From Allacma fusca (Eukaryota > Arthropoda > Collembola > Symphypleona > Sminthuridae): DNA of 64,000 nucleotides. This document shows, piece by piece, positions 2,734 through 38,611 of this stretch (positions are counted from its first letter, which is position 1; each line of letters starts with the position of its first letter). Position numbers and translations under genes: made by a program. The DNA is taken from positions 13,498,539-13,562,538 of the forward strand of contig OX359250.1 of the NCBI GenBank assembly GCA_947179485.1, written 5' to 3'. The notes under the pieces are model-generated. The model searched no databases. It saw only the letters and a program-made list of their open reading frames with translations, and was not told where the DNA came from.

Positions 2734-2792
2734 ATCTCTCTCTATCTCTATCTCTATTTCTCTCTCTCTCTCTCTCTTCCCCCCCCCCCCCC
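2734..2792. repeat. CT-rich tract followed by poly-C
   Basis: A TCTCTA/TC microsatellite runs from about 2734 to 2778. It is followed by a homopolymer of 14 C residues at 2779-2792. Confidence 0.9.

Positions 2793-4343: not shown

Positions 4344-4348
<5 letters not shown>

Positions 4349-4380
<32 letters not shown>
4349..4380. repeat. (GA)16 microsatellite
   Basis: An uninterrupted GA dinucleotide repeat of 32 bases. It creates an artificial RE-repeat reading frame on the plus strand. Confidence 0.95.

Positions 4381-4383
<3 letters not shown>

Positions 4384-8725: not shown

Positions 8726-8730
<5 letters not shown>

Positions 8731-8765
<35 letters not shown>
8731..8765. repeat. (CT)n microsatellite
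   Basis: An uninterrupted CT repeat of about 35 bases following a T run. Confidence 0.95.
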
Positions 8766-8767
<2 letters not shown>

Positions 8768-11700: not shown

Positions 11701-14700
11701 AAGAATCCTTCCTACCTTTTAAACCCACCCATTTTAACAAGTGGTTAAAACGTCGTGCATTGGTTTTAACTTTTAACACGATTTTAACACACACACTCAC
11801 AATTATCCGTATGTACTAAACTTGACAACCAATAATTTACTGTTGGAGATACCAAACCTACCATTACTAGAGGAAATTAACTAACTGGTTGTATAATTAT
11901 ATTCCTCTCTTACACAACCAATTTCAGTTTCATATACATATGTCCTTTCAGGATTTTCAATCTTTAGGAAAAAGGAGGCAAGGCTTTTTTTATTGTGGGA
12001 TGTAAGCACATCATATCATGTGTGTCCTCAACGAGGCAATGTAACACAGGCTCTTACAATATATGGGAGTAAAATGTAGAATTTTATAACTACATTAAAA
12101 GGCCTTGCCTTGTTGATTTTATTGAATTTTGAAGTCCCTCTTGTAATATTATCGTTTCGAGAGCATTTCTAGCATTTCTCTGTGTATGTAGTAAAAGGGA
12201 GTCACTCAAAGTCATTTCACCTTCAGACTCACATTCCCACTAAAAATTAGTACACGAACGACCATAGACATTAAAATTAGATCCGTCGTGGAAATGCTTT
12301 GATCTGCTCTCAGCAACTTTGCATTCAAATGATAGTAGTGGGAAACATGTTGTTGTTATTTATATTATTAAGTTATTACAGCCTGTCAAAGGATTTCCAA
12401 CTTTACCGTTGTAACCGTTAAGCCAAATCTGACCCTTGCCTTTTATCATCCCCCACAGGTTTTATTTATTTTCTTTGAACTTCTTTTTCGGGATTATTGT
12501 GTAAGGTATCTGAGTTGATATAGAAAAAATAAAATCCTACAAATTATGAGTGCATCATCCTCACAAGCTTACAACCAACAACCTGATGACCCGATCCTGC
12601 CACGAATAGGTCGAGACATCAACTTACACATACACAACTCCATACTAATGTATAGATACACATGCACGTATATGGAATTCGTACAGAGAGGTAAATTAAG
12701 TGTTACCTGAGGAAATCCACAGGAAAGAAAGAATGACCTCAAATTATGACTTTATGCATGAATTCTCTGTTAAGAATGAAACTATAACATACCATAATCT
12801 CTGTCACGTTTCTAACTGACATGTAAACTATACGATGGCTCTGACCGTTTTGTCAGGATCAGGATTCAAACCAAGAGCAACACCACAAACTGTGAGCCAA
12901 CAGATTCCTAACCCCGTATTTTTCAAAAGAGTTTACACAAATTACAAATTTTGTCCCTACACAGGCTCAAGATTAGTAATTTACAGAGCTGTACACATAT
13001 GATGTAACTCTGCCCAACAGCAACAGCAAATCCCTTACTTCACAATTAATAAAATTAATAACAACCAAACAAAAAAACCTTGCCGTAATAAGTACAAAAA
13101 TACAGACAGAGAAGTACCGACATCAAAAACGAATCAATTATAATCCCCCAAATCCCATAGACTCGTGAATACAGTATATTATAGACTCACAACAAGTAAC
13201 TAGATTAGTAATAATTACATATAGATATAGATAAACACGCTCTGAGTCGTACATATCTATGTACATGTCAGTGTGCGAGCCCATACTTTAAATAAATATA
13301 CATTGCAAAATATAAATTTAAACAATTTTGAAACGCGTCATTGGAATTGATTCATTAAACGTACTTAAGTTATGTGAACCAAACCTAACCACTACGGTAA
13401 TGGAAATGTAGTTTTTAAAGAAATATCACCTAGAATTATTACAATACCATATTTTTATCCTTTCATAAGTGAAGGATATATTTAAGTAAATTATATTTAG
13501 ATTCCACCAAGGAGATAATGATCAAGTGTAGCTATCTCGAGAAAAAAAAAACTTCATGCATAGCACACTTTCGTTTGTGTTATCAGAGACAAGTCAAACC
13601 TCGACACTTTCAGAACTCTTGCAATAAATCTGAGCAAGCTTCAAACGACTGAGATTCGTGTCCCGTTAAAACCATTTTTTCTATTATTTTTATTACAGCT
13701 AAAAGAATTTATCGAAAATATCACGTCCAGACGAAATTCATGTGTAGGTAGAAGAGAGAAGTTTAGGGCCGATCAGAATCCCACTACCAATTCATATAAG
13801 TTTTCTCCATAGTCGACATTGTAATTTATTGCGCCAACAAGCGCAACCGATCATCATCTAGTACACTTCAACATGAAACCAAAAATTGGACTCAAGTCTA
13901 CTATATAAGTATATTTAATATAAGAATGAAACTTTAATAAAAAAAAAGTACGATGAACACTCCCAGTGTTTCAGTGTATTCAACCACTGACATTTTCTAT
14001 CACACTTCTACTCTCTTCCCAATCCTTTACATACCCTCTCAGCTTCAAGCCACGAATCAAAGCGTGTATGACACTTTTATTCCACATTTCGCATACACGG
14101 CCCATATAACAATGTACAAGAAAGTCATGAAATAGCGTTAAAAGTTCACAAGTTTAAATGTAAAATCTCCATTCGAATATTTATATACGCATGCATTATG
14201 TTGGAATTTGGAATGGAAAAGGAACCATAAATTCTTTGACAGAAAAAAGGTCAATTTCAGGCTTTAAATGAGCAAAAAAAAAAAAGAAGTACCTGTACTT
14301 CTGTACATAGTTAGTAATATGTAGGGAATTATTTACGTGTTCATAAATCCGTATACATACGTCAATTATTCTACTTTTATAGAAAAACCTATACTACAAT
14401 TAAATTAGAAAATATCCTTCACCCTTTAATTGGAAAATGTCCGAGGATAAAAATAAATCTACAACCGGAGCCAAAAAATAAGGTAGACTGTGCGTGTGTG
14501 CAGAGTGGAAACTCATATATATCTACTTATATCTATATAAGTAATTACAGATATACAGGTTGAGCAAAGTTTTATGGTAAGTCTTGATTGATTTATCACA
14601 CACACGGCAACCACTGACTTTCCACAAGAACTTCCCTATAGTGTCAATACAATACCAATACAATACAATACATTAAGATTCCCTGCAGGAAAAAAAAAGT

Positions 14701-16087
14701 CTAACCTCAAACTAAATAAAGAAAAGGAATAGTAATACTAGAACTATATGATACGACGAGCTGAAACAAAAATAAAGGAAAATCTCTTGGCCCCCAGCTT
14801 TTCAAAACCTACACAGAATAATGGAGTAAAGGCCTATATACACACACTCGTATGTATAGTTATAAAATATACATATACATTAGTATCTACATCCATGGAA
14901 CAACTTCACGTTCACACTCACTACTTCCGCATGGAAGTCTTGAAGCGTATCAGTCAAAGTTATGCATGCATCTGAGCCCCTGACTCCACTACGTTGTATA
15001 TATGTAAAATATGTATCTACATTTAACCCTACTCAATGTTTAATCCATCCATACTCTTATTATAGGTTCCTCGCCGAGATTTTTCCCTATATACCAGCTC
15101 CTTAACGCACCTGTCTTTAATATCTCGCTCAGCAATCCCACTTTTGAATTTGAAAAAGTTTTATTGTGACGCTGTACACATACATACATACCTACATGCT
15201 CCTAGTCACGTATTTTTCCCCAACAAACAAGCTTCTTTCTTGCGAATCTTCAAAAGGTCATAGTCACAGTCAGGTGAAAAAAAAAGTTTTTTAGACTATA
15301 CTACAGGAACATGTCTTTTGTAGGGGAAGAAAAGGGCTACACAAAAATCGTGAATTCTTAGGCCGTCGGAGTACTACTGTAGCGTCACTCTTTCCTAAGA
15401 TGCAAAAGAAAAAAAAAACAAAATGTATGGCAACAACTTTATTTATGGTTCCATTGCCTTTAACAAACTAGGAAATTAATTCTGAAATGAAACACATAAT
15501 TCAGGATGATAGTGACAGGAGAAATTAAAATATCTCGTTGGTAAATAGACAGTATACTCATAATTAATAAATTATTATCCACTCATTACAACTCTCGCCC
15601 CATTCGAAAATGCAATACAAGACGACTTCCGATTTTCTGTCCCTGTAACATTTTTTTTCCCTCCCTAAATTTCGTCAGTCATAAACATTAAGATCGAAAA
15701 TAATAATTATAATCACCACTCTCACGTCCCCTCCATTACCTTCTCCTCACTCTTCCTTAAAAGATACTGAGCCATTCTGCATAATTAAGTCTCTACAATG
15801 TATGTATGTACAAGTCTCTGGCAGTGTAAGTACAAATGGGCTGGTGTGTCATAAGACTCTTCCGCCAAATTAAAAAACGTCTATTAAAATGTTAGCCTAG
15901 TATAATATGTGGCGTGTCGGACAATGCTTAACAGACGGCGGTTGCTGGGAACATATTTTAATCTTCCCTATCCTGAACACTCTCTTGACTAAGACGACAC
16001 TGTCACATTATAATGGACACAAGGATGCATGATTGGCAAGGAGAAAATGACATAAACACCCTGCATATGTACATTCCATACTATGGC

Positions 16088-16111
16088 CACACACACACAC
16101 ACACACACAGT
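16088..16111. repeat. (CA)n microsatellite
   Basis: A short CA dinucleotide repeat. Similar short CA runs occur near 8113-8131 and 18991-19010. Confidence 0.85.
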
Positions 16112-19100
16112 CAGATACACAGACAATCCTCGCCGCTGCCGCCGTCTCCTGTACATATTTTTAAAAAAAAAATATCATCGAAAGTGAAAAATGGTTTCTC
16201 CACCCTCAAAAGTGTCTTATTTAAATTATCTCTGATGAAAAGTTACACAATTCCTGTTTTTCCGATGGTCGTGAAAAGTGGCTTGTACTAGCAATAATCT
16301 TGAGGCCTTCTGCTTGTCATTATGTACACACCCGAGGTATTATAAAGAGGAAAAAGCGTCATTTCTGATGTTTTGTCATTATTATGATCTTCCGCAATGC
16401 CAATAGCATCAGCAGCAGAAGCAGCACGCAATACCTACATATACTTGTGTAGATATTACTTCACTTTAGGGGTATTTTCTCGAATTTATTCTAAAACAAT
16501 AGGAAATTTACATGCATTACAGATTACAAGTCCCTTTCATTCATATGCATGTATTTTATCAAGCATAGATACATATTCCCCTTAATTGAATATCACAGAG
16601 TTATCCTCAAAATGACTGGAGATACATATATGCTAATAAACTAAATCTTATGTACAGAGATGCGCCTGTACTTACTGTCTCCTCTTCACGACTGTGATGC
16701 TTTGCATACTAAACACAAAGAGTTTCATTCCTCAAGAATTTTTTCTCGCCCTATACAGAGGTATGTAGGTACATAAGCATATAGTCCGTCAACTTCAGTG
16801 TATTTACGGCTAATTATGATTTCCCTCCCCAGCTTTTCATTTTTAGGCAGTCCATTTTGCATGCGTTAGTTACTCCGAGGCTAAGTGTCATTCCACCAGT
16901 TCACTTTGTAAGAGACTCAAATTTGAGATATACTAATTGATACAATGGGAGAGATTGTTCATTACAAATTGCAGGGGGACTATTATTAACCCTTCATCTT
17001 CTGCAAATAATGATAAGTAATAGACTTGTTAGGAGGTACAAGAAGGGAGCTAGGAGAGGAGAGTGACCATTGGATAAAATGCAAAGACTGAGACTGTGTG
17101 TGGATTTTCCCAAATGATAACTATACATAGATACTAGTACATAATTACATACATACAGTATACACATTTCTATTTGAACGACTTGGGAAATTATTAGTTT
17201 GAAGGATCGTTTTTATGTCACGGGTGAAAAACAAGGCATAACGATGTTCAAACATGTTTCAACTGAGAAAAGTTGTAACCCACAGTGCAGTACTCTAAAA
17301 CAGGACCTTGTTTTACATGTCTTGTACATATAATAATACAGAGGCTAAAATCAGTCCAAGTGTAACATGAGCTGAAACAAAAAAAAATAATTCATTGTCA
17401 ATACATTCCTAGAGGCTCTGTAGAAAAATATGTTTCTACTTGAGGAGACTTCTCCTCAACATTGTATATTGTATTATTGGAATATATATACACTACTTAT
17501 AGAAACGATGAGAGTAAAGACTCAGTCAGGTATGTTCCAAATACTGAATCGATAAAAGGGAAAGCACCCCCCCCCGTCCATCCAAGATGAAAAGTAGTTC
17601 AAGCCCATTCTGCTAATCAAGTAATGATTATAGATGACTAGTTGAGGTGATATTACTAAAACCATTATATCATTTTGTGAGACAGAAAATAACTAGTGCG
17701 ATAAGAGAGGACTCACTGCTTCGTTAGAGCTGCTCCCTTTGGTCATCATCATCAAAGGAGCATCGTAGTATTTATCATCCCTGTGTGTACTAGTAGGCTA
17801 GGATCCGAATGACGTTCAGACATACAACAACTACACATGTGAGATTGGTTAAGCCTCAATGACTTCACTATGCACAATGAGATAAGATGACAGGGCAAAA
17901 ATTTTCATGAAAACCTTCTCTTCCCAACCAAGTCCCAGTAGTTTTGCGAGACGAAATACATACCCAAACTCAAGTAAGTAGATATAAGTAAGTAAGTACA
18001 CAACAAAAAGTAAGGAAAGGAAGGTAAATGCAAAAACCCTTCCACGACGGATCTCACTCATAGTAGATAGCTACATATACATATATAATTATATGCATAG
18101 ATATAATAGCAAGACGAGAAAAAAAAACACAGAGGAACACTTTGAGCAAAAATATTTTGCATACCGACAGTGCTGCTTCAAATATGATGTTGATACAACT
18201 ATGTACATGCAGTCATCAATTAGAATCAAACGATAACATAACAATAGGAGAACACAAATTCTTGAGTAGTGCAGTGGCGGTAGGTACAGTCGATCGGGAT
18301 CTTGTCAGTCTATATCTACTTTTAAGCATACATACATACACAGGAGTCTGTTGTTGTCGTCCAAATAGGGAATCTTCATTCCTTAAGTAATTGGGGTCTT
18401 GTACTGATAGTATTACCTCCCGTTCGACTCCAACACACTACTAGTCGTAGTTCAAGTCGTGCCTCAAAATAACCTTTGCTTGTTTTATCAGACAGTTGAT
18501 GTACATACATACCTGCACACATAGATACATATAATTACGCACATATGTATATCTATACATAAGTATTCCAAAGGACCCACAGTGTGATCTCAGATGTGTG
18601 ACTGCATTCAAACGTTCTATTACCTTAGACGCTTCAGCTCATTGCGAGATATTTTAGAGACTTCATACAAAGGCACTTTCACAAAAACATGGTCTACATA
18701 TATAGACAATACAAATGTTATCTGAGACTCAGCACAGCAGTATCCAACCTTTGAAGTATATGTCAAAGTCAAATATAAAAAAAATTAAACTGAGAAGGAA
18801 ATCTTGATGTTTTTTTTTTTTTTCTTTTTTTTTTCAAACACCTTCCCAAATCGAAAATCCTCTGTAGTAGATACATATCTACAGCTTTTATGAAATTATG
18901 AGCCGCAAGATTCTCAATTTAATTGGGTAATTTAATATACCTCTGGAAACTGAGTTTGAAAGGGATCGAGAAAATGAGGCCCTGTGCAAATACACACACA
19001 CACACACACATATATATATTCAATGTAATGTTTTAAATCGCTACAATTACGTTCTGTCAATACGGACAACGTTCGAGTCAGAACTCACTCACACGCCATG

Positions 19101-19638
19101 AGATAAATAAAGAGAAAAGTAATTCCGTGCCGGATCTTTCTGAGAAACCTATTAGTGACTATAATACAATCTCACCTTCAAAAGAAAGAACTATGGAACG
19201 AGTCACTCTAGAGAATAAACCATAATCATCATAAATTAAATCTGGATGGATAGATTTCTCAATCAAGACCCAACCCTCTTATTTTTTGACAATGGGGACC
19301 AGAGAGCCAAAATTAGAGTGACATGACAGGTATCCATAGCCAATTGAAGTCATCAACAGTTCAGAAGCTCCTCAATTGCATCTCTCCTGGATTTAGTCCA
19401 CTTTGTATCTTTTCAATATATTCCCCCACTTTTCAAATTACCAAAACAGGAGCACACTACAGTATCTATCTATATGTACCGTCAATGTTTACGGACACAT
19501 TTTAAGCAGACTCACTCTCAATGGATGAATAGTTCGAATTGTATTCCTTAATCCCATCTTAAACCCCATAGAGAGGTACATGTAGTAATTATGCACACAT
19601 ACACACACGTCTTCCACATCTCAAAAATATCCGTACAC

Positions 19639-19690
19639 ACATACATACATACATACATACATACATACATACATACATACATACATACAT
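19639..19690. repeat. (ACAT)13 tetranucleotide repeat
   Basis: An uninterrupted ACAT/ATAC array of about 52 bases. This is the longest example of a motif that recurs in degenerate form across the first 30 kb. Confidence 0.95.
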
Positions 19691-20938
19691 GAGTAGGATA
19701 TCGTTTCGTAATGTAGACGATAAGATGCAGGTCACTCAATAATTTGCAAATCATACCACAATAAGTCTAACGAAATTTCGTCATGTTCTGAATGATGTCA
19801 AAAATAAAGCCTCCGCACTAAATTGGAGATGTGAAAATCCGTACTGTACTCCAAATGCTAAACAATGAAGACTCACATTCTTCACCGTCATCTCACCAAT
19901 CAGTGGAAAAAACCTGAGCACACCTGAGTATAAATACTGTTAATTACGAGAGTCTCTCCAATTAAGAGTCCAGCCCGCTCCTGATATTTACTAATAATTA
20001 GATATGTACACATGTAATTACATATGAACGACTCAAATGAATCTATAATGACCCAATGGTGTGAATCACAGTCTCCACAGTAATATAATAAGACCTTATT
20101 TACTTCAAGGTCTACATTGTGGAATGTGTATCCACACCGGAAAACCGATTTGAAAAAAATTCATCCTTGCGTCTTGAGTTAATCGGAAAAATCGCACATT
20201 CCACAGTGACGGCAATAGACATCAAAGTAAACAAAAAAAATGGAATGGCTAAATAAATACCTGGTGTACAATTCCCTGCCGCGGCAGAGGTCTACATACA
20301 TACATAAATACATGCATCTGTACCGTATGAGACAGTACATAATAAAGTTGATTTAAAAAAAAAAACTAGGAGTGAGTATATACCCATATAGACAGACACT
20401 GAGTATTGCAATAATGGAACAATAGAAAAATGCAAGGTGCTGTTAGATAAACGGTGAAATGGAATATTACGCTGCATCATTCATCTATTGTTACAGATTC
20501 AAGTTTCAAAATATGACAATGAATTCGAGTGGCATTACTCCCATTATTATCAATGTTATGAATTATTAGTTTCTCTATTATTTCCTATGTCAGTATCTAT
20601 GAACTGTTGTGTAAAATCAAAATCCCTTAGTGTGTGTGTATATGAAGAAAGATGAATGTGAAGCAGAGAGGACATATACAGAAGAGCAGGAGCTCTAATG
20701 AAGCGGCAGTATATGAGAGGACCGTGCGTAAAAACGGGATAAGTACATAAAATATATACCTACATACAGGCACATACATATGTATGTGAGTGGGAACGAA
20801 CAATGAACAACACTGAAATACATGTATCAAGAGTAAGTTGTCGGGCGTGTCTCACACTTGATTCTCGACTTCTTTGAATCATATCGACGGACATTACAAT
20901 TGAGTTACAACATTCAGACACATACTCCAATATACAAA

Positions 20939-20950
20939 GACACACACACA

Positions 20951-20982
<32 letters not shown>
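20939..20982. repeat. (CA)n microsatellite
   Basis: A CA repeat of about 44 bases with a single TA interruption. Confidence 0.95.
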
Positions 20983-23900
20983 TGGACAGAGCAGTACAAC
21001 ACATGTACGTCCCTAGAGTTGTGGAGTATCAAGGTAACTCTAAATCTGAGATAAAAATTTATATCATCCATTGTAGACAATCTTGGTAGTTGGGAACAAT
21101 TTGTAATGTAACTCTGTCTGATACCATTATAATAGTGTTTTGACTAACAGTAAGTAGGTCGAATTGATCATATCTCTATTATGGTCAGGTGCGTGTATTT
21201 ACACTGTATTATAAATTATAAGGAAATTCTCATAATGCAATTAAGGTGAAATGCCATAGAAAACGTTAATTCTCCAAAGCATCAACAATTTGGTCGACAA
21301 GTCGTCAGTCGTCACCTTCACCAAAATTATATTACACTACAAAAATGTTTTATTATGTGGAAATTAATTCCAACCATTCCGACTTTCAATCAATGTCAAG
21401 ACATCACACACTCAATTATAATTTAATTATTTGTATTATTACAATCACCCAAACCTAAAAGAAACGCTCCCACTCACTCCACATGTGCAGCCGTATATAT
21501 CTATGTCCTCTACGTACTACATATGCATCTATGGTTAGTAAGCCTCTCAAGACTTTTCTTTTCCAGAAGTAGCGCATAGCAATCTCTGCTGAGCGAGGAA
21601 GCATGTTCCGGCGAACAATGCCTTGAGCAATTTGTCAATGCTAAAAAATGTATAGTTCTGTATAATCTTGAGAACACAATGTATGGCTAAAAGTGTTATA
21701 ATTCATAATTGTTCAGTTTAGTGTAAAAAAAAAAGATGTTACTTATTCTGCACACACACACATACACACACACACACTCACCACACCACATACAGACAAA
21801 AAAAACTTTCCTTAATGACCTCTACGTACAGTTACAAAAAGTGAATGCGGACGGACAGTAGTTTAGGTCTGAAAACATTAACCGCAGGCTATCTTATACA
21901 TAATGTACTGTGACTGTTGCATCCTTGCGTGATATTAGCAAACAAAACGGTTGTCAGTCAGCTACATAAAAAAACTGAGGATCAATAAATAAATACGATG
22001 GGTATGAAAGAAATGCGTTCAAATGAAACAATAATGTCCAAGACCAATTTTCACTTTCCACTGGAAATGTGGTATTTCGCATGCCTATGGACATACGATT
22101 GTTGTTTTTTTTTTTTTTTTGCTCAAGAAGATTTACGTAAATCCAGATATGTCACTTCTAATAGAGTCTTTAGAGGGAAAATAAAACTGTGTATACACAA
22201 TTTTTGCAAATCTTGAAAAAAACCTAATATACAGTGGATACATACAGACGAGGATGACAATGACAGTACTCATTGTGGACATTGAGAAGTACATTCAAAC
22301 GGAATGTAAATCACACTCCTTCTTGTGTATGCATATACATACAACATAACATGGGAGAGAGAAACCAGGAGTAATAGTGACAACGCCTTTCATTATTTTG
22401 ATTCACATGCAACCTCAACATTTTATTCTGGGCTTTGCTTTCGATCCTATCACAGAATTTTTCTTCAAATTTCTCTCTTAGAAAATCTGAAGCTTAAATT
22501 TGACCCCTACTGTTCACCCATTTTCTTCACGACATGATCCATGCTGTGAGATTTTCATCGTACGATTACCACACATATCAAATCACTCATCATCACTTCT
22601 CCCCAATCTTCTCAATGTACTATGTATATAGTCTCTCCTTGCCAAACAAATATTCCCTCCATTTAGTTTACATTACAAACTTGGTATTTTTTTTTCCAAC
22701 CTGTAATGTCTCATTTACGTTTATACGCATTTTTATACTCATCCATCTTAAAGGCTGGCACTTCTAAATTCAACGTATGCATTCCTACACTAAAGAATAC
22801 AAGTATTATTTTATTCCACAAACTGTCAGACAAAATCTAATGGATACACAGACACACAAACACACACACACGAGGCTGACCATAAACAAAACCTTTTTTT
22901 TTGGCTCACACAGAACAAGTAAATCTTGAAAGTTTCTTTTACAGTACGACCATAGTTAAATTCAGAATAAGATCCAAACAATTCATTTATGACATTCCCT
23001 GTAATATTTTTATTATCATTTGCTATCATCATCAAACTGTGCTTTACCTCCACCGTCTAAAATGAAATGGAGTTGAAATAATGTACTAAAACAAATTTGT
23101 AGGACGCGGTAAATCAACAGTATTTATATTATTTCGTCGTCCCTAATAATTATTAGTCACCACGTCACCAGTTGACATTAAAATATTTCACATGTAGTTA
23201 CAACGGAGTAGCATGTATGCATTACAAAGCCCATAAAAAAACCAACACCTTAAAGACAATATTTACACCTTTCATCCACTAAATAAAAAAGCAGGACTTC
23301 ATCATCAAACATGTAGAATTGAAATACTTGAGTCCAGTATTGTCAAGTAACTTGACTTTTTGTGACTTCAAGTAAAAATCTCTTGAAGACTCTCCTGTCC
23401 GGTAATAACCTAACTTGAATGAACTCGCAGAATTTCCCTACATAGAGATTGAGGGAGAGACATATGTATGTATGTATGTATATCTTGCCATCAATTAAGT
23501 CGAGTACACAGGGACAATGATTAAGCTCCGAGAGTCTGTAAGTAAAAGTATTTTCACTTTGGAGCTTGTGAGCGCCAATGTGCGTGAAAAACATGCTTAA
23601 TTTAAATGAGCAAAGCACCAAAAGGTGTGCACGCACACACATATTCCTTGTTTGACACCATGTACTGAGAAACCCCAAGAGCAGTACACGTACACCTGGA
23701 TGTATGTACATACGTACATCTCCTAGTCTCTCTCCTACTACATATTAACAGGACCCAGTACAGTGTCCGACGACCTATGAACAAATAAGATACATATAGT
23801 CGAATCATCTAGGGCAACTCCATTCGAAGGGATTTACACTTCTCCTTAGCACACAATAATTGTCCACAGTATACAATGCCTGTAAGTATTTAAAGAGATT

Positions 23901-26900
23901 CAATTAATTGCATGCACATCTAACAAATTCTCAAAAGCTCGGAATGATAACTATAACGTGAGTTCATTGTTGGGCTGGGAGTGAGCAGAAAAATGTTTCA
24001 CATGTAATTACAAATAGTCAAGTTTTTTTTTTTTAAAGCAAAATGCACGAAAATCTCATGAGCTTGAATAATTAATTATAATATCTCTGTTAAATAAAAG
24101 AAGGGGTAAAAACTAAGCTCACTGCGCTTTCATTCTTTTGTCTATTTAGTCACAAAAAGTACGGGAGAGAATCACCTTCCTAATTTCCTTGCTTATTAGC
24201 GGCCACGAACTTGTAAACTAGCATCTCGTTTATTGTGGGTGCATACATATATATACATATAGATAGACACACACGTAAGATATATGTAATTATATACATA
24301 CAGACAGATAGACAGATATACAGTCACAGAATCCAAGCGCCAGAGACCTCACAGTACTTGTACTAAATAATTACATTCAATGGTTTCATCAAGGGGTAAC
24401 AGGTCCATTGCCGCTTACAGTGCATAAATTATGCCAGATATTTAAAAAGATTAAGACTAATAACAAGAACAGGTATGTATGTATATGCACAGAAAAGTAT
24501 GAGAGGCTGAGGATGAAGAGACTTGGAATTGGGATATATGTATGTGCACTTCTTTATCGCCCATGCTCTGCAATTAGTTTCAAGGGAATTTAGAGTAATT
24601 TATTAAATATGTAACTTCTCATCTAGGAAAATTTGGATGAGCAGGGTCAATTCTCGCATTAAATTATTCATGCATTTCTAATGTAGAGAGGCTTAATGCC
24701 AATTTTAAACTTCGGACAAGTTGAAATTTCACGGAAGAAACAATAAAATGCATCGGTAATTCTGATCTAGCTTAAATCTTAGATAGTTATATATTGTTCG
24801 TATTTTTTTGTTGTGACTGTGGCCTGTGTGAGTAAACGGAAACAAAAGGTCACACTTAATCAAGCTGCTTAATGTTACATGCATAGGGACTGAGCTCGTA
24901 ACTCACAATTTACTTCCGTGGCCAATGAATAGATAGGTCTGTGTGTGTAGGTAGATATACAAACCATATGGGTATCTTCAAAAGAAACAATGATTACGTA
25001 AGCTGACGATGGTCAGGTATAAAAGTAACTTGAGTTGAGCACCGCTTAAAATGGTCAGTCCCGCACTATCGTGGTATAAGTAACTGAGTCCAAGTCCCAA
25101 GATGGAGTCTCATCTTTCCCAATGCCAGTGAGTGGATTGGCGTAAAAAAAAACAACTATTTAAACTAAAAGACTGTAATCACCATAAAAATGTGTAAAGG
25201 TACTTGTCCCCCAGTTCACGCATTCTACATTTTATAAGGTAGAATATCTATGTACCTATATATGTTTAGATAGATACATATGTATATGCAAGTACATGTA
25301 CGTATGTATATGAAACCTCCACGATTTGAAAATTGTCTCCATGAAATATCTGAGCATTATCCAAGTTAAGAACATGTCTGGTAACAAATAAGACATTTTT
25401 ACGAATGATTGGGCAAGTTCATAACCACGAAGTGGCTTTTACACTGTCCGTACAAGTAACCAGCATTCGTTACTCCATTCCACCAACATCATTTTATTCC
25501 TCATATGATCCACCAGATCCGCTCTATACCGTAGCGAATACTCCTCTCAATTAATAATAATTACACATGAAGGCACTGAAGAGCCCACGATTCTCAAAAG
25601 AAAAATCTGAAACATAAAACCTAACTTGAACTGCAGGAGCTCAAATTGTTTCATCAAGAGGCAAGGCACCACGTAATATATTTCCCTATTACAAATTACA
25701 ATACACTTGCTGGTAGTAAGTACCTTCCACGGATTAAATAAAAATAATGTTTTTATTTTCCCCTGACACATGAGACCAGTAAGATAGACACGGATTTCAA
25801 AGATGTATCTACTTCTTACTTTTAAACCAAACAACAAGACGAGGCCTCATAAAAATAAGCTCCCCCTAAGGCTTCATCGTTTTTGTACATTTTAAGTAAA
25901 ATAGATACACGCATCAGATTACCATCACCAGACAAGTGTAATCATGTATTTACGGATGTACATACATACATACATGGCTACATTATAAAAAATATATGTG
26001 CCGACCAGGCCTGGTGATGACGCGACAGGTGATTTGGTAGCCCGCTATTAATACATCCTAAACGGCTATGAACACTTCCTTTCTTCCTAACCCAGTTGTG
26101 ACGTTCCCTTAAGCATGTAGCATTGACTGTGACTCTTATTACACAAAGCTAAGAATAATAGCCCAACCATAATAATTCTATATGTTCGACGAAAAGTTTG
26201 GAATACCATGAAAAATTATACAAAGAAACAAAAACAAGAAAGATGAATGAGTGAACGTTCAAGAGAAAAAAAAACAGCGTCCTAATTAACGATAATATAA
26301 TTTAGCACTGAAAGGCTGACTGTAATTTGACAGTTTTTCTCCTGCACTCTCCTATTACACTCACATGAGTCAAAACTATCATTCTAAATTTAAAAAATTC
26401 TCGAGTATCTGCCAATATATATACTCCAAAGAGTTGATGACGGAGGGGTTGGAAATGGAGGTAACGCTATAAATAAGGTTGCATGATTTAAGAGAAAATG
26501 TTGTCAGTACCGTGTAAATTCTTCACTGCAACAATAATAATAATTACTCTAGGGTTGTGTTTTGTAGTTATATTATTATTGTCGAAAATTAATTTCAAAA
26601 AACATTTGACAGCAACACTGCATGCGCAACCGAAGGTCATGTATCCACAAATTTATACACGCTATTGGAAATAATATAAATACAATGAGAAACCGGTGAT
26701 AGGTCAAAGAAAATCATCAAGCTCTTATCCCAAAATGGTGGGCCACCCTTGCAGGCAATTGTTCAACACTACAACAGCCCTCCCTCATGAATACAGATTA
26801 TTCCCGGCCATACACATACACACACACGCAGCAGACTGCTTTGAGTTGAGAAAAATATTTGAAAATAGAAGTTCCGATTGATTGTGTATTGCCATAGCAC

Positions 26901-27762
26901 ATTTGAAATGAAAGGATTGGATTGCAATTTAAAGATTTTGTCTCCTCTCATGGCTATGAGGTGCACATTCCGAACGAGTCATGCTTTACCACCACTTTCG
27001 AATGCCAATAATACATATGAAAGGAAATACAGGACCATACATCCATACTAGCAGATACTCAAGATAATCTCAGTTCACTGCGGATTCAGCAATTCTCTCT
27101 CACTCTCTCACTACCAGCCCATTTTGCCAGTTGACTTCTTTGTCAATTTGATTCGGTCAGCATGCTTTGTCATTTACCAGGTATAGATACATATATACAT
27201 ATGACTGGTTTAAATCAACATGTAGGCTGCTTTTCCAAAGCGTCAGTCTCACCCAACCACCAAACTCCATCTCAAAGTGTAGGATGCCTGGGATAGATAC
27301 ATACAAATGTACATATCTCTAGACAGACACATCAAGGGGGATAAAAAGGACTGTATAAAAATACACACAAGACATATTTACGCAGCTCAGAATTGAAATG
27401 TGAAAAGACGACCAGAAACCACAAGATTCATTTGCTGAAATCAAATTTAAATGCTCGTTTGTAGGATTCCCACAATCGATTCCAAGTTTTCAACGCGGAA
27501 TAAATACGGGTGATTAGGTGTGTACTAAAAACTGTGAGTAAAGGTTTGTCGTGGAGTCATCGGAACGTTTTCACTTTAAAGTAATTGGACGTTCTACCTG
27601 CAATTATAGGTACTTGACCAACATTTTCGACTGCCTACAATATTCAGTCGTAGACAGTAAACTCACAGTAACTATTTTAATCAGGCACCGCATTCATTCA
27701 AGCTCTCTAACCCTCTCACAATGCATTGTGCGCGACCATAAGAGATTCAGCCGTTTAATGTT

Positions 27763-27770
<8 letters not shown>

Positions 27771-27807
<37 letters not shown>
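27771..27807. repeat. (CT)n microsatellite
   Basis: A CT repeat of about 37 bases, roughly 1 kb upstream of the first visible exon of the LRR gene. Confidence 0.95.
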
Positions 27808-27814
<7 letters not shown>

Positions 27815-28774
27815 TTAAAGCAGAAAATCTTTAGGTTAGCCGAACGTGATATGTATACACATGTTCAGATATAATGTAAAAATGAAACTTGAATTGGAAT
27901 TAATTTAAAGCAGTAATTAGAATGAAATAAATACTTTACTACTCTGAATGATTACCATGCATGAAAAAATTCCACAAAGTAGTATTAATTAAGACAAAGT
28001 TTGAACTTCTCACGAACATATATGTACAAGTAGTAACATGATCTGGCAAAAGTAACTTTGAAGCAAATTGACCCTTGAGTGTGAAACTACGAGCCTGACT
28101 TTTGTAATGCTAGTACATGTTTGTTATTACATTTTCCAATTTTTTTCGGCCATTGTGATCCGTTACATTTGCAAAGAAAAGGAGAACAAGTCTATATTTC
28201 TTCAGGTGAAAAAGTGGCGTAGAGGAAAAAGTCAACTAAAAAAAAAAGTGAGCTGAGCTAGAAATAATCGCACGCTAGTACAAAGAAGAATTCCTTCAAG
28301 TTATTTTTTCTCTGTAAGTTCAAGCCATAGCCTCAGAGATGTAATAGTACATCAGCCTCATGTATGTAATGTAATGTGTCCACTACGTAAACCTAATTTA
28401 CTCAAGCATTCTATTTTACATGAGTACGGCACTTGCTTAATTGTAAATAGTAGAATCTGCTAAGATTTCTGTGTTTGTAGTTTAGCTACTCCCATTATCT
28501 ACTCCTTGAAAGTCTACTTGTCCTGAGAGTGTGAGTACAAGAATTTACACCTGAGATGGTGATGCCGTGATGCGTCCATAGATACATATTAGGAGTATGC
28601 TTAATAAATTATAGAAGTGCCAGAAAAAACATTGCACCCTAGTGCTATCCTCCATGTTTTACACAGACGGTTTGTCTTGTTCCCTTTTGTCTCTATAATT
28701 CGTAAATGGTTTCATGAACAGTAAATCAACAAACATGACTCCAAGTTGTAACTCAACTGCTTTTCTATTTACAG

Positions 28775-31700
28775 GACTTCCGAAAAAATCTCGAATCATT
28801 ACGCGTGAATCTGAGGACGGACAATCATCCCCTTCCTTTTATCATCTGTCTACTTTCCTACAGAAATACAGAGAGACTCTAACAAGAGAGAACAAGATAG
28901 AGAGAGAGAGAGAGAAAAAAACACCAGTGGGACAACGGACCGTGCAGAAGTGAATCTTGAAAGGAAAAAAAAAGTTACAAAATAAACATAATGCTCAAGC
29001 ATAAAGACCAAGTGAAGACTAAGTCACTGAAGAGAGAAGAAAACAATTTTAAATGCCAGATTGTTAATATGTCAAGTCCTAATTTAACTATTCACTTGAA
29101 GAGAGTAACGGGATATCATTCTTCATCGAAACTACTGTTTCTCATGATTCCCTGGCTATTCCTTTTTTTATCATCAAGCTTTCTTACGGGAGCTAATGGA
29201 GCGGAGGAAGATTGTCCCTGGTATGGTAATGCACGCGTGCCCGCAATCATCAAATCTAACTGTCTTTGTGCTCGGAATCGAACCTCTCACAACCAACTCA
29301 GTGTTCAGTGCCACGAAATTGACGGTCAGCAATTAGTTTCAATTCTAATAGGTAATCGTGCTGGGCTCAAGGATCCCATTGAATTACTTTATCTCAACGG
29401 GAGTCAAGTCACTGACTCCAACGGACAAATACCGGCTCGCCTATTCCGAGAAATTAAACTGGTATAGTAATTATTTACTTTACATTTGTATAAATATTAC
29501 TCAATTATTATAGCAGTTTTATTCAAAAATGAACAATGCTTACTTTCTTCCGACGTCAAAATAACATGTCACAATTACTCATAAATGCCACCGCAAAAAC
29601 TGATCCTTTAATGATCACATTGATCACAGTAGGTGCAATGTCAAACCTACGATAAATTTTTCACACAACAATTGTGCTCCTGACGATAATTAGTATTAGA
29701 TAACATTTAAACACTAGGGGCAGAAGTATTAACACTGTCTGGGAAAGGGATCCTTCATGTATTTGCTTAATTCTGGATACCTCCCTGACTCTCCGGCCTG
29801 TGGAATATACCTATATATACATAATAATATCTATAGATACTGCAGAGTGCCTACTGACTGCTGACCCAAATCTTGCTGCATAGGATCGAGAAACGATTAA
29901 AACAATACACTAGGCAGTCTTCCGTTCTACGAAAACTGTAGGTCACAGATACTTAGCAAATGACATGAAGAGATGCAGTAACTCCCTATCCCTTCATTAT
30001 GATTTGCGTATTATTAATTATTCTATGAGTTTAAATTAACCCCAGGCAAAGATCGTCACAGGGAATGTGTTCATAAACGGAGAATTATACTTGTCATTAG
30101 ACATGGCTGTGTGAACCCAGCGGTGTTAACCTCTGAAAATCTTTTGTAATGAATTACTTCACACGATCATGATCTCCCTTTTCCAACCAAGTGACGCTCG
30201 GAGCATTATAACTAACAAACACTGCACTCCCCTTTATGAAAACTTCAAATTTAACAAAGCAATATTGAAAAGTATGGTTATTTATCATGAGTACGATAAA
30301 CAAAAATCAATTTCTCTATGCATGATTTCAGGTCAGTCTTCAATTGTCTGGATGTAGTGTGAAGTCCATTCATCCTGAAGCATTTCGTGGTCAAGAAAAC
30401 TATCTGAAACATTTAAGCCTGGCTCAGAATCAACTCATAGAGGTTCCGTCAACTTCCCTCGAGCTTCTAACTCACCTTGTACTCCTTGACTTGAGCTATA
30501 ATAAAATCACGAAGATCCCTCAGAGTGCCTTTGAAACACTGACTAAATTGAGCACGATCAAACTGAATGATAACAATCTCGAATTGGATACTCACTGCTT
30601 CAAGGGCCTAGAAAATTCTCTCCGAAATCTAAACTTAAAAGGTTAGTCATCATAGATACAATGTTTTTTCACACTTTACATACATAAAATACATGCATAG
30701 AATATCTATATATATGTATAATTATACATATATACAGACATAACAAATACTTTGAAGGCGTGATGATAATATAAGGGTACAATAATTACCCCAATTTATT
30801 GAGTTATCCTCAATGAAGCAAGTAAATTTAGTACATATACCTTTAAACCTAAAGAGTAAAAGTAATTTCCGAAAGCTGAACTATTTAATAATAAATCAGA
30901 CAACACATCCAAGATAAGAGGTTACAGCTATTGCAATCACTAATAATTGAAAAACATTGGGTGGGCAATTTCTCTCCTTTAATCAAATGTTAAGTATGTG
31001 ACAGCTAAATCAGCAGTATTATTAGAGGACTAAGGAGCCAAATCTGCCAACTTTGTATTTCCATAATTTATTTTTGTTGATTTCTTAAACACTACTTACT
31101 ACTACTGTACATACTATATGATAAGTTACTAATTTACGGTAAGCCTTTCCGCATTGTAGCTACTTCAACATATAATCATTGCACGCTATGTCCACGCACT
31201 TTTTTTTTATGTGCCATAACTTACACCGCATAGAAAGTTAATCCCGATGGATCTGCCCGTCCACGCTAAGTTACTCACTGTAAATTTGCTGCAGCGTGAA
31301 TCATTAAGTAGATACTATAAAGCACACTGCCACCCCGTTTCGTAACCAGCTATTATCGCTATTAATTAATTTATTTTTACCGTCACCTTCGAAAATGTAA
31401 GTTCAGTCAGCACAACGTCTGTGAGGCTTTGGCTTTACTATGAAAGAAGTTACATATATACAAGACACCCTACTCAATAAGACATTTCATACCATTGAAG
31501 TAAAAAATGCAGACGTAGGTCAATCGTAAGTACAGTTGAAAAGCATAAACCATAAATGTAACTACTACAATAAAAACAACTTTGTTTATAGTTTTTTACG
31601 CCTCCCATCTTCAAATAGATACAAGTTACAGCTTAATTATTTACATCAAGGGTATTTGTAAAGTAAGGTAACTGATCTCAATGATATCGTTATTTCCAGG

Positions 31701-34700
31701 AACTCGTATAAGTATGATACCGGAAGCTATCTCAAATCTTTCCTCACTGGCCTTTTTGGATTTGGCTCAAAATCGTCTGCGAGACTTGGAACCCCTGCCA
31801 TTTTTACGACTTGACTCTTTGACAGTTCTAAATCTCGAACGGAATCTCCTTCAAAGTTTACCAGAGTCTGTTTTTACAGGGGTCAATGATACGCTGAGCT
31901 CCCTCAGCCTGCTCAATAATCTCATTACGCACTTCCCTAAAGAAGCTCTTCACTCACTCAAGGAATTACGCGTAAGTTTTTTAAATTATTTTTATGTCAT
32001 TACTCACTGACTCCCCAACTAAGTACATATTACCCTGGCGACATTGTGGAGGATTCCAAGGACCACCCGTTATGCAATCAGTGATCCTATTATATACTAT
32101 CTACTGAAAAGTAAATACAGGATAGCATTTTTTGCAAACATGTAATAATGACTCACTGCACGCATATGTAAATCAATGCACGTACTTTAATACAGTTGCA
32201 GTTCCGTAGTAACAATTTGTAAAAATTATAAATTTTAATTTAGAATAAGGTTGCAAAAATAATCAGCAACTTCAAATTCTTGGTCAGCACTCAGCACCCA
32301 TTTAGGATTGAGATATCATCTAAAGCTGAACTTCTATCATGCCGTTTTGTTTATTGTTGCTTCTTTCTGGCGTGTGGAGGGGTAAAGTAATAAAAACAAA
32401 AAAGAATTCTTCACGCTTCGTTGCTCCAGAAGTTCGTCTTCAGTTTAATCATTACAAAATAAATTTCTTTCATAATGCAGACTAACTGGATCTTTACTGA
32501 CAAAAAAAAATTGAAGATGAAACTCTGAACAGACGTGTGTTGTATGTAGCTCCTTAAATGATACGTCCCTCATGCCATTTCCACTTGTAGGCGTATGCTT
32601 TTACCTAGTATCCATTCTGGCAGACTGAATGGATAAATGAATCTTGAACACAAAAGATTCAAAAATAGGGAACAGTCATTTGTTTACAATGCAAAGATAT
32701 CTGTGGTATGAGTTAGACGTAGAATGACTTGGGAGCAACAAATAAAGCTATGCAGAAATTTAAATTTAATATGAGTTTACATTTAATGTAAAGCCCAGAT
32801 GTAACAAGGAGAGAGAACAATATCATTCTAATATATATGTCTGGGTGACAATATAATTGCACAGGTGCTCGATTTGGGCTTCAATCTCTTAACGGAGATC
32901 CCATCTGATGCGTTTTCCGGTCTCAGCTCTCTCACGCTCCTAGCATTGGATGGAAATCCTTTGGCAACATTACCACTGACTTCCTTTACACCCCTTAATT
33001 CAACTCTACGTGGATTAAGCTTAGGAGGTCGTTTCTTGTCCTGTGACTGTCGGATTAAATGGGTGCATGACTGGATTCAAGAGTATGATTTACAAGTCAC
33101 TAGTCGGGAGAGGAATCCACAATTCTGTGGAAGTCCTCCTGCTCTGAGACAATCCAATTTCTACCAGCTACAAACAGAAGGTACCCATGAGAAGCTCTCA
33201 CAATGATACTGTTACACCGTAGGATTAAAGTATTCGCAACAATAAAGCTCCCATGCGTATAGGCGTAGCGAGTTAATTGATAAAGCACGACCGACACTCA
33301 CTAAATGACTAAATGAATTATTGCAGATTTCAAATGTGAAAAAACTGAACCTTCCACATCCCCACAACCTGACATAGAATCTTCTGACGATGCCCCTACC
33401 AATTCGAATCCAAAGCCCTTTGCGGCTCGAAATGATAATATAGGCAAAATCAGACAGAACATTCGTGTTCAGAAACCTAGGATCAAGCCTCTGACTACAC
33501 AAGCAACCAAAAAGGATGACGAGAGGCCAGGAGGTAGTGAGTCGGAGCGTGTTCCTTTAATGGCACCCACGTCCTACGAAAATGATAACGACGATGAGTA
33601 TGATTCGGGTAGCGAGTCTCAGGAACATGAAATCCATGACACGGCTTCATCCAATTCTGAACCAGTCGAAAAGCTGGCTCAATCCATCCCAACTACCACC
33701 AAGTCCCCACTACTAGAGACAACTAAGCCTACGCAACTACCCGCACAACCTACGAGGAAAGCCTTAAATACTGCTGTTATTAAAGCTTTCCCAGGTTTAC
33801 GACCGAAATTCCAACAGAAAACAATTACGTCAACAACATCCAGCACCAGTGTCAGTAGTACGAGCACATCATCAACTACAGGAGATACCCAAGATGATCT
33901 ACCAGTCATGAATCACAATGCTGAGAATCGTTACTCTACTGCTCCCATTCCTACTTTCAGCACGACAATGCAACCACACATTCCAGCTCAAAGATTTGTT
34001 CCGTCGGAAACCATCCAAATTCGCAAGCCTTCAGTCTCATTTGACGGTCCTGACTTTGATGATTCCAAAATCCCTGTGATTACTGGCGTGGGTCCGGTTC
34101 GAACCATTTCCGGAACCGGAAGTATGATTCCTAACAGTAACAATGCTGGCAACGTGATATCTATTAAGACAAGTACTCTGTCACCGATTCAAACACAACC
34201 ACATCCTGTCATTCCTCCACCACAAACCTCTCCTTCGCTCGGAATCGGAGTCAACAATCGACCACCTAATTTAATATTTGCAGAGAAATCAGACATCCTG
34301 CTGAAGGATGTAGAACGTAGTGGGGATACTGTGCTTTTACACTGGGAAAGTCAGAAGCAGGTAGCAGGTTTCAGGATTATTTATAGGATTTTCGGTGAAG
34401 ACACTTTCAGACATGGGCCACCATTGGCTACTACAGAGAGAGAGTACCGTATCAAAAGCATTCCGGTTGACGTAAGGCATTTAAAATTTAAATAATAATA
34501 ATTATTGTTTATGAATCAAAATGCCTCTTTCACTGTGGCGATGACTCTCAATTTTAAGCAAGTGATAAATACTGTCTCAATATGTTAAACTACATCACGG
34601 CTTTTTACATTTCAGCAATGCATTGTCGTATGCGTAGTTCCATATGAAGATATACTGTACAATGAAATTAGTCCGAGTGCTGGGTCCGTACCTCCAGGAA

Positions 34701-36223
34701 GTCAGTGTAAAGAACTGAAACCTAATTCTCCATCAGCGCTGATGAATAATATGGATAAAATTACCATCGGAGCTAGTGCAGCTATATGTGCAACTGTCAT
34801 ACTTGCGGTGTTCATTTTCATTTTAATAACACGACGTTCCAAAAACCGCCGACCTAGCTCTGGTCTCATTAGTAAGGTGAGAAGTTTCACGAGTGTGCAT
34901 TGGGAAGTCCTTGATAGAAAGTATATATGTAATTACGTCAAATGACGACGAAAGCACGATTCTCAAAATAATATTTTTATCATAGGTTCCTCCAGGTTCA
35001 ATGCTGTCACAGTCCCCGGGACCCCCAGCACTGATTACCCCAGGATCATTGAGTTTAATAAAGGAATGGGACCAACTGTCAGCAATTTCCGCAAGAAGTA
35101 TCCCCCGCGCTAGAGTGTACCATGGCAATAGTATAATGGAAAGCACTGGTAACATTTCAAATGGTCACAGTCACGGGCATGGGACAAGCCGTTCGGTGGT
35201 CCTACCGGTGCAGTCACAAAGATCAATACCAGATGGACATTCAACCCACAGAAGCTACTTGAGCGCTCATCATGCCCACCATAACCACTCAATGCATAGC
35301 TACGGTCACAACACTGGACATTCCACAACTTCCGCAGCAGTGAATAATTACTTAAATAATCAAAGCAGGTTACTTCGAGCCAGTTTAGGATCAAGGTCCT
35401 CGCAGGACGCACTAAACAAGCAGTTGGGACCTTCAACTCATGTGCATAGACACTTTGAGCAAAATCAAAAAAGAAGACGTCCAGGAGTGGCTGGACGGCT
35501 GAGTCAAAGTGACTCCTTGAATACCCTTAGCGGTTATGAGACTCCTGATAACTGGACTGACCATGATATGGACGTTTACGTTGCCAGGAATGCAACGAGG
35601 CATGACTTGGTGCAGTTATAAACCTTGCGCTTTTAAGTTTGTAATTATTACCTAATTAGGGAGAAACTAATTTTCGAATACAACTACCATGTTTATTTTT
35701 ACGAGAATAAAAAAAGGACCATACGATAAACATTTAGAAGGAAAAGACTTGCATGGAATGCAAACATTTAATATAACTTGCTATGTATAGATTAAGCATT
35801 TTTTACAAATGGCAACAAACGTGTAAGGTTTTTGTTACGAAGCTTCTTACAGCTTATAAGAATGTAGTTCTATCATTCTGTATTTTCACTATTTGCCGGT
35901 TTGAAGGGCAGCTTTTTATATGAAATTGCATCTACACTTATTCAATGATAATGTATTTAGACACTGCAGTTATTTACGTACTCTGAAATGTGGTTGCAGA
36001 TGAATGGTTGCAATAGAACAAGCGAAAGAGGAAATACTTCCAATTGATGTGTAACTTATATTGCCATTAGGGCTGTTGCCCGATTGTATGTACATATATT
36101 GTTTTCTTTTTAGCGTTAAATTATTATTACTATGTTAGAAGTAAGCTACTTATACAAATTCAGCTTTAATGCAATTAAGTTATGTTTTGCAACAAGTTTA
36201 ATGTGTAATTTTACGGTAATAAA
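28775..36223 (+). CDS. LRR / fibronectin-III single-pass membrane receptor
   Basis: This is a complete seven-coding-exon gene. Coding exons are 28991-29461, 30332-30641, 31700-31971, 32865-33180, 33327-34471, 34616-34876 and 34986-35621. Phases close throughout to give 1136 aa. The first visible exon starts after a good acceptor (AG at 28773-28774) and carries about 216 nt of 5' UTR with a GA repeat. Order of parts: a hydrophobic signal sequence (near residues 45-70; an in-frame ATG at residue 27 is an alternative start), an LRRNT-like Cys cluster, about ten LRRs, an LRRCT (C411, C413 to C460), a long Ser/Thr/Pro-rich linker (about 460-768), one FN3 domain (about 770-857), a transmembrane helix (about 887-911) followed by RRSKNRR, and a cytoplasmic tail with a His-rich stretch. 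The likely role is as a cell-surface adhesion or signalling receptor. The architecture resembles arthropod LRR-FN3 receptors, but I cannot name the orthologue. Confidence 0.9.
36218..36223 (+). terminator. Polyadenylation signal of the LRR-FN3 gene
   Basis: An AATAAA about 600 bases after the stop codon. A poorer A-rich AATAAA lies at about 35706-35711. The 3' end faces the last visible exon of RAB3GAP1, which is only about 310 bases away on the other strand. Confidence 0.6.
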
Positions 36224-36530
36224 ACACTTGAAACAATATTGGTTCCATTAAGCCTGAAACATTGCACAACTGCAATGACGGTTTCCTATTAAGGAAACCA
36301 GAAGGCTGAATCATCGTCAGATTATTGGACTCCATACATGTATGCGAAAGATCCATTAAAATTATACACACGCAAAAGGTTTCTCTACTAACATATTATG
36401 AAATTTCGTACCCCTGTTAATTTGAGATGAGTCGTCACAGTTTCGAGGCCAATAAATATGAGATGAAAATTTCACGGTGCATTAATTTTTAACCACCAAG
36501 AACTTACAACATGAATTAAAAACTACTTAC

Positions 36531-38611
36531 CCAGGGATTTCAATGGAATTTTCCCATCGGTAGCGAAGTTCCAGAACCAGTTCAGCCCACAAATGTGCAA
36601 CTGCTCCGGCAAACCCGACATAAGTATTTAGGTAACTCAATACCACAGCCAGTCTCCAGACCAAACTTCCCATTGGAGCAGATTTTATGCCTTGCAATCC
36701 ATCCTGCGCATTAAAAGCAATTACCAAAATGTAAGATTTCTTGTCAGAATCCATAATAAACTAGGGAATTAGCAGAAAAATATTTACCACAAGAGATGCT
36801 ATTTGCTCTTTCTCGAACTCGGGTAGTCGATCAAATGCAGATGGGTATGGATACGGCGGATCTGAAGCTGCGTCAGGAAACAGGAATGGTAAAACCATGT
36901 CAAGTTGTTCCTGCGACAACGGAGCTAAGTCTTGATACTGTGCGGGTGAAAACAAAAGTTGTTTTTGTGCTCTGTTTACATTGCTAATAACACGGTTCAA
37001 TTGGGGCAACGGGGAATTCACTAGAGCAAGTCTTTCCAGCGCTGAGATATACTGTAGGTCACCTGGAAGTATTATGCAAATATAAGTTGCGAATTATGGC
37101 AAAGTTGAAATAATCATAATTTTGAGCCGTTACCTGAGTTGTCAAGTTTCTTCCCCAATATTTCTTCAATGGTTCTATTTTCCGCTTTCAAGTTCCAAAC
37201 GCCATCTGCTAAATCATGGAGCCTAAACTCCGCTTGAGTGTGAGGTCTCAAGCTAAAATACCACTCTGGGGCATTGGTAGGTTCTAAGTCAGAATAACTT
37301 GGACTGTCGACGACTACATCTTCAGGAAGATATGGCCACCCAGCTACCAGCTCCAATTCTTGAAACGGATCATCTAAAGAGCCGAATGGTAGAAATGAGG
37401 TAAATGCATGACATCGACTCCATGAGTTTGGCTTAGAGGTTTCGTCTCCAGGCTTCGGGTTCATTTCGTCAAAAATTTCAGGGGGAAAGGAATCAAAATT
37501 AAATTTTGAATGCCAGGTTTGCATCTTATAAAAAAAGTGGGCTGTGACCCCAACGGAAGCACTTAGTGTAGGATTCATTTTCGATTTGAAAATACTCAGA
37601 AGTCCTGACAAATATTTGTGCTGATTGGCAACATTCTTGAGATGGACCATTTGAAACGAGGTCCTAGTTCCAGCATATTCAGCTATTCCACAGTAATACT
37701 GTTGATTCCAGTGATGATATTGGATGAAGATTGGAAAAACCCTTGATATAGTAAAAATAACTACATCGACCCATTGTCACTGTCAAATAACTTTCACCGT
37801 CTTTACTTACGTAATAATTTAAAAATCAAGTAATTTAAGTAATAAAACGACGACTACTTACGAATTCGTATTATTCAGAGCCATACATGCAGAGCTTAGT
37901 AAAGCCTTTAGTTTCGATTCATTCTGCATGGGCTCTAAGCCTGCTGAAGACAAAACAGCGAATTCCTTCACATCGAAATAGTCAGCTACTTTATGAGGAG
38001 AAAACTTGGGAGGGAAGGCATCATTTTCTTTCGACACAGCGCTCATTAAATAGGGTGGAATTGAATCTATACTGCTTGACGGGTTGATGGATGTCGTCAT
38101 CAAATCCGGTTTCGAAGGTTCGATTTTCTTAAAATACGAAAACTTGAATGGAAAATCTGGAAAAAAAAGTTCAGCCATAATCAATAGAACTTTAATACCA
38201 TTCAAAGTAAATACATTATATGACAATCGGAAAAAACAATTCAAAAATATTTTATTCCTACGGAACAACTTTAACTTACCCGAAAAAGAAACCTTTTCAT
38301 GCAACACGGCCCATTGTTCCACCAAGTTTTCTTGTTCAATCGGTCGCGTTTGCCACTCAATCAGGAGCCTCTCCAGATGAGCAGTAAAATGTTCCCAATC
38401 GGAGGCTGTGGTAAAATCTTCGAACTGCTCTTCCTAAATTGTGGAAACAAATTCAGTAATTAAAATTTCATTGAACTCATTAATTTTTGAACACATTAAA
38501 ATACAAAATAAACCCCAAAACCCTCACGAGTTCATAACTGTCATCATATACTTATACACTGATATCACACTAAAATGAAATTACTATTTCAATTACCTCA
38601 GATAACTCCAT
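36531..38611 (-). CDS. RAB3GAP1: Rab3 GTPase-activating protein catalytic subunit, N-terminal half only
   Basis: Six coding exons on the minus strand: 38611-38597 (five codons from the ATG), 38433-38280, 38156-37862, 37741-37134, 37062-36788 and 36703-36531. Phases match at every junction, giving 506 aa plus two bases. Family landmarks in order are EDFTTASDWEHF near the N terminus, VSFSDFPFKFSYFKK across a splice, YLSGLLSIFKSKM, FLPFGSLDDP, the LPFLFPDA motif and VAHLWAELVLELRYRWEN. These match the animal Rab3GAP catalytic subunit, which with its non-catalytic partner acts on Rab3 and on Rab18 in vesicle traffic. The final visible exon ends in GG followed by a strong donor (gtaagt), so the gene continues. 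Family members are about 950-1000 aa, and their C-terminal half, with the catalytic arginine, is not found here. It is either beyond a very long intron enclosing the LRR gene or lost. Confidence 0.93.

Follow-up and report, generated by a model that had tools for sequence, protein, structure and literature searches.

The window analyzed here, a 64,000-nucleotide stretch of contig C9 (C9:13498539-13562538), contains the predicted 5′ half of a minus-strand RAB3GAP1 gene that runs toward the window's left edge, together with a plus-strand leucine-rich repeat (LRR) gene. The features are given below in window positions, or in contig coordinates where they lie beyond the edge.

38597..38611, minus strand: RAB3GAP1 coding exon 1, beginning at an ATG that is the model's choice of start codon; 15 nt coding, donor gtaatt
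38280..38433, minus strand: RAB3GAP1 exon 2, bounded by tttag and gtaagt
37862..38156, minus strand: RAB3GAP1 exon 3, bounded by ccag and gtaagt
37134..37741, minus strand: RAB3GAP1 exon 4, with a weak acceptor (tatcaag); the alignment to 8vyb is gap-free across that join
36788..37062, minus strand: RAB3GAP1 exon 5, joining in phase in the assembled reading frame
36531..36703, minus strand: RAB3GAP1 exon 6, ending in phase 2 at gtaagtag and gap-free against 8vyb into exon 7
C9:13492511-13535068 (window -6027 to 36530, of which 1..36530 is in the window), minus strand: RAB3GAP1 intron 6, 42,558 bp
C9:13492510-13492362, minus strand: RAB3GAP1 exon 7, outside the window; donor gttacc, weak by eye
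C9:13491196-13491030, minus strand: RAB3GAP1 exon 8, outside the window
C9:13489764-13489627, minus strand: RAB3GAP1 exon 9, outside the window
C9:13489252-13489031, minus strand: RAB3GAP1 exon 10, outside the window; bears the FDDTREAEK arginine
C9:13488390-13487686, minus strand: RAB3GAP1 exon 11, outside the window
28991..35621, plus strand: nested LRR gene, wholly inside intron 6, with seven coding exons (28991-29461, 30332-30641, 31700-31971, 32865-33180, 33327-34471, 34616-34876 and 34986-35621)
35706..35711, plus strand: candidate poly(A) signal AATAAA of the LRR gene, identified by consensus only, ~85 nt past the stop and ~820 nt before exon 6

The original prediction described six phase-perfect exons that encode a 506-residue N-terminal half of RAB3GAP1 and that end in a strong gtaagt donor, and both points are borne out. 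When joined, exons 1-6 give 1,520 nt of open sequence with agreeing phases, or 506 codons plus 2 nt, and the last exon is followed after position 36531 by gtaagtag. In a search of the PDB, the 506-residue product aligned over residues 5-506 with 8vyb_A (E 1.2e-72), which was the sole distinct PDB sequence that it matched at E <= 0.001. The same half, when searched alone, matched no Pfam family at E <= 0.001. The match of the predicted six-exon product to RAB3GAP1 is far above chance.

The rest of the gene was sought in the direction of RAB3GAP1 transcription, where the next 100 kb were taken as ten loci (L002-L011). Six-frame translations of the window, of L001 and of L002-L011 were scanned with a handful of short motifs typical of the family's C-terminal part, not with a profile. 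Three matches were obtained, each of them in L002 and in the minus orientation, and exons 7-11 were then placed by direct inspection of portions of the L002 and L003 sequences. They lie on the same contig and strand, 6.0-10.9 kb past the window's left edge. The resulting 11-exon model has a coding sequence of 2,901 nt that is open, with agreeing phases, and specifies 966 residues plus a stop. The boundary between exons 7 and 8 may be a few residues off because the stretch there is poorly conserved. On the minus strand of positions 1-36530, the few short motifs found no match, in line with the original prediction that no C-terminal exon is recognizable there. Stronger than this motif scan is the placement of exons 7-11, which complete the protein, outside the window; the original prediction was wrong that the C-terminal half is missing. 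Looking in the adjacent genome sequence, as had been suggested, was sufficient to recover them.

Comparison of the full-length model with 8vyb_A shows that the two halves belong to a single gene. The 966-residue model aligned at E 3e-165 in two stretches that occur in the same order, with model residues 5-548 matched to 60-589 of 8vyb_A and model residues 559-963 to 629-1035. The join between exons 6 and 7 (...WENSIEIPG|LERGSPNSGTCLLNQKLQMLNCCIEKK) aligned without a gap. Furthermore, the catalytic domain PF13890 was found at residues 585-737 (E 4.7e-62; 208.8 bits versus a cut-off of 26.1). A second family, PF19533, was matched across profile positions 2-200 of 203 with E 0.00013 and 22.2 bits, which is under its 27-bit cut-off; we read this match, on the predicted protein, as a diverged C-terminal domain. 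A profile search of the genome with PF19533 gave no match, and 14 control genomes likewise gave none. The PF19533 cut-off was not taken as defining for the assignment, which was made because of the PF13890 catalytic domain and the full-length alignment.

The catalytic residue is also present in the model. R728 sits in FDDTREAEK, a motif that is identical in the 8vyb alignment, and its arginine is presumably the family's catalytic arginine, human Arg728. A literature search on the catalytic role of this arginine found nothing on topic, as judged by title. RAB3GAP1 and RAB3GAP2 form a complex that acts as a Rab3 GAP and a Rab18 GEF, with RAB3GAP1 as the catalytic subunit. We take chain A of 8vyb to be the human protein of that kind; its entry reads Rab3 GTPase-activating protein catalytic subunit, isoform 2. 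The springtail model resembles it in the near full-length collinear match, in PF13890 and in the FDDTREAEK arginine. It differs in its diverged C-terminal domain (PF19533 under the cut-off) and in an unaligned stretch at about residues 548-559. The product would be expected to behave like other RAB3GAP1 proteins, that is, as a catalytic subunit with RAB3GAP2.

By DNA similarity, exons 1-6 and exons 7-10 each occupy a single place in the genome. In a whole-genome DNA search, the 2,081-bp 5′ half (exons 1-6) was found in one place, as was a 3,601-bp stretch spanning exons 7-10. These queries were exons 1-6 and 7-10, without exon 11, and such a search sees similar DNA only. A count of genomic copies of the exon at 37741-37134, proposed as a check, is covered by the first of these searches and comes to one place.

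Intron 6 is the unusual part of the gene. It begins with GTAAGT and ends with TTGCAG, contains no N and has a GC content of 36.4%. At 42,558 bp, it dwarfs the remaining nine introns of the RAB3GAP1 coding region, which measure 71-1,265 bp. The original prediction placed a desert here; with plus-strand stretches over the LRR gene excluded, 66 runs of 70 aa or more between stop codons were counted in the intron. When positions 1-36530 were compared with themselves, a test that addresses repeats within the stretch rather than genome-wide transposons, we found no direct repeat families and no inverted pairs of at least 60 bp. Recursive splicing of the intron was considered and set aside. A ratchet-like AG|GTAAGG occurs near window position 3451 on the minus (sense) strand, with 11 of 15 upstream positions being pyrimidines. 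AG|GT hits with at least 11 upstream pyrimidines averaged 0.08 in 200 order-1 Markov sequences, a figure whose threshold was set from the hit itself. For the plain recursive-splicing motif, the sense strand had one occurrence, against 1.24 expected, and the antisense strand had two. The motif test thus gave no support, and the single sense site is too weak to use.

The gene nested in this intron encodes a protein of 1,136 residues, with agreeing phases and one stop, at the end. Its whole coding sequence lies in one host intron, with host coding exons on both sides. The product contains LRR_8 (E 5.7e-36). By eye, it also has a hydrophobic segment at the N terminus, a flank with cysteines, a long linker of low complexity and a tail. 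Another hydrophobic segment near residue 900 was called transmembrane by eye. In the original prediction this was an antisense LRR-FN3 gene. The LRR gene is there, on the plus strand, and the FN3 part is not supported: the segment, cut out and searched alone, gave no Pfam family at E <= 1. The LRR part matched 352 distinct PDB sequences at E <= 0.001; among the 60 of these 352 that were listed, the best was the IGFBP acid-labile subunit (E 5.1e-45). We left the gene unnamed because its best PDB matches are general LRR proteins. At its 5′ end, a sequence resembling an acceptor (tttctatttacag), immediately before 28775, hints at a possible non-coding exon further left. At its 3′ end, 909 nt separate the stop at 35621 from RAB3GAP1 exon 6; given this distance and the AATAAA at 35706, the mature transcripts of the two genes need not share exonic sequence.

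Taken together, these results indicate that the locus almost certainly holds a complete RAB3GAP1 gene of 11 predicted coding exons and 966 residues, whose 42.6-kb sixth intron contains an oppositely oriented LRR gene. The original prediction had offered this arrangement, with the LRR gene lying antisense within a RAB3GAP1 intron of more than 36 kb, as one of two readings. What the DNA provides is anatomy, agreeing phases, continuous homology and, by DNA search, a single genomic place; from these we infer transcription, splicing and function. RAB3GAP1 would be transcribed straight across the nested gene, and the gtaagt donor of exon 6 would be spliced to exon 7, 42,558 nt downstream, as one long intron. 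The LRR gene would leave with intron 6 as antisense sequence; its own transcription would start at a separate promoter, on the opposite strand. On the predicted gene model, nothing is broken: the gene is ordinary and intact, and its second half only seemed to be missing because the window's edge falls within a long intron.

Other explanations deserve consideration. Polyadenylation within intron 6 could yield an additional short form, a 507-residue protein without the catalytic domain, beside the full-length mRNA. Reading through exon 6 gives GGG TAA at once (...EIPG*), as such a form would have it. Yet, the immediate stop is mechanical and would be the same for any phase-2 exon end before GTAA; since it is set by the phase and the donor, it is no evidence for a short isoform, which we consider unlikely.

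A related and still less likely idea is regulation of RAB3GAP1 by the antisense LRR gene within it. Specifically, transcription of the LRR gene would end RAB3GAP1 in intron 6, leading to a 507-residue noncatalytic form that could compete with the full-length protein. If true, such regulation would tie the control of Rab3/Rab18 to a surface protein with LRRs. However, the closest precedent, the nested gene 2mit and its Drosophila host timeless2 (tim2), is reported without a functional relationship in the text available for that study (PMC3786989).

It is similarly improbable that the assembly is in error, with a foreign stretch containing the LRR gene and the supposed desert inserted between RAB3GAP1 exons 6 and 7. 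The size of intron 6, which far exceeds that of the other nine, would be consistent with this. Against it, there is no N in intron 6, contig C9 is 48.06 Mb long in an assembly of 393 Mb in 91 contigs, and other cases of LRR genes inside large introns have been documented. The weakest alternative, and the second reading of the original prediction, is a truncated copy that retains only the N-terminal half and has lost the catalytic arginine; the scan with a few short motifs did find no C-terminal match on the minus strand of positions 1-36530, but this reading is refuted by exons 7-11, which complete the protein collinearly and in phase on the same strand just past the window, with exon 10 carrying the arginine and exons 7-10 found by DNA search in one genomic place.

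The preferred reading, an intact RAB3GAP1 gene with an LRR gene nested in its sixth intron, has documented parallels, in which a large intron encloses an LRR gene read from the other strand. In Drosophila melanogaster, nested genes are reported to make up about 6% of the total and to lie frequently on the strand opposite that of the host (PMC3786989). One of these, 2mit, lies on the opposite strand in intron 11 of tim2 and is described as having 2 exons and encoding an LRR type I transmembrane protein of 1,141 residues with 16 LRRs; the authors, in the available text, find no functional relationship with the host (PMC3786989). Our case resembles it as an LRR protein of similar size (1,136 residues versus 1,141) encoded antisense in a host intron. 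It differs in its host, which is RAB3GAP1 rather than tim2, and in having seven coding exons as opposed to the 2 exons of 2mit; the likeness is one of size and arrangement only.

Vertebrates provide a second comparison. In jawed vertebrates, LRRTM1-3 are reported to be nested in alpha-catenin introns on the opposite strand, and LRRTMs are described as restricted to vertebrates, with all or nearly all of their coding sequence in one exon (PMC3933685). According to the same source, as far as its available text goes, LRR-superfamily genes were the guests in 12 of 19 nested vertebrate pairs that were lost in frog or chicken (PMC3933685). Like LRRTM1-3, the gene described here is an LRR transmembrane gene, as judged by eye, that lies antisense in a large intron flanked by coding exons of its host; unlike them, it has RAB3GAP1 rather than a CTNNA gene as host, and its coding sequence is spread over seven exons rather than about one. 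Among titles and abstract openings on RAB3GAP1 gene structure or nesting, none described such a nested gene, and the available text of a paper on overlapping genes in Aedes contains neither "Rab3" nor "leucine-rich" (PMC3689595). Antisense nesting in a large intron is commonplace among animals. The significance of our findings lies mainly in annotation: a supposed truncation of a conserved gene is removed, and the set of LRR genes known to sit antisense within a large intron of another gene grows by one. More generally, with an intron as long as 42.6 kb, the edge of a 64-kb window can make an intact gene look broken.

The remainder of the window holds other features. Upstream of RAB3GAP1 exon 1, positions 40262-40710 consist of tandem arrays with periods of 11, 24, 35 and 42 bp (of the TTTGGTGGTATG type), over which run open reading frames of 130, 142 and 168 aa; these arrays are likely a minisatellite. 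Further along, as judged by eye from the list of open reading frames, those at 43171-49878 on the plus strand resemble exons of an ABCB (MDR-type) ABC transporter, and those at 60113-61072 on the minus strand resemble a PI-PLC X-domain-containing protein.
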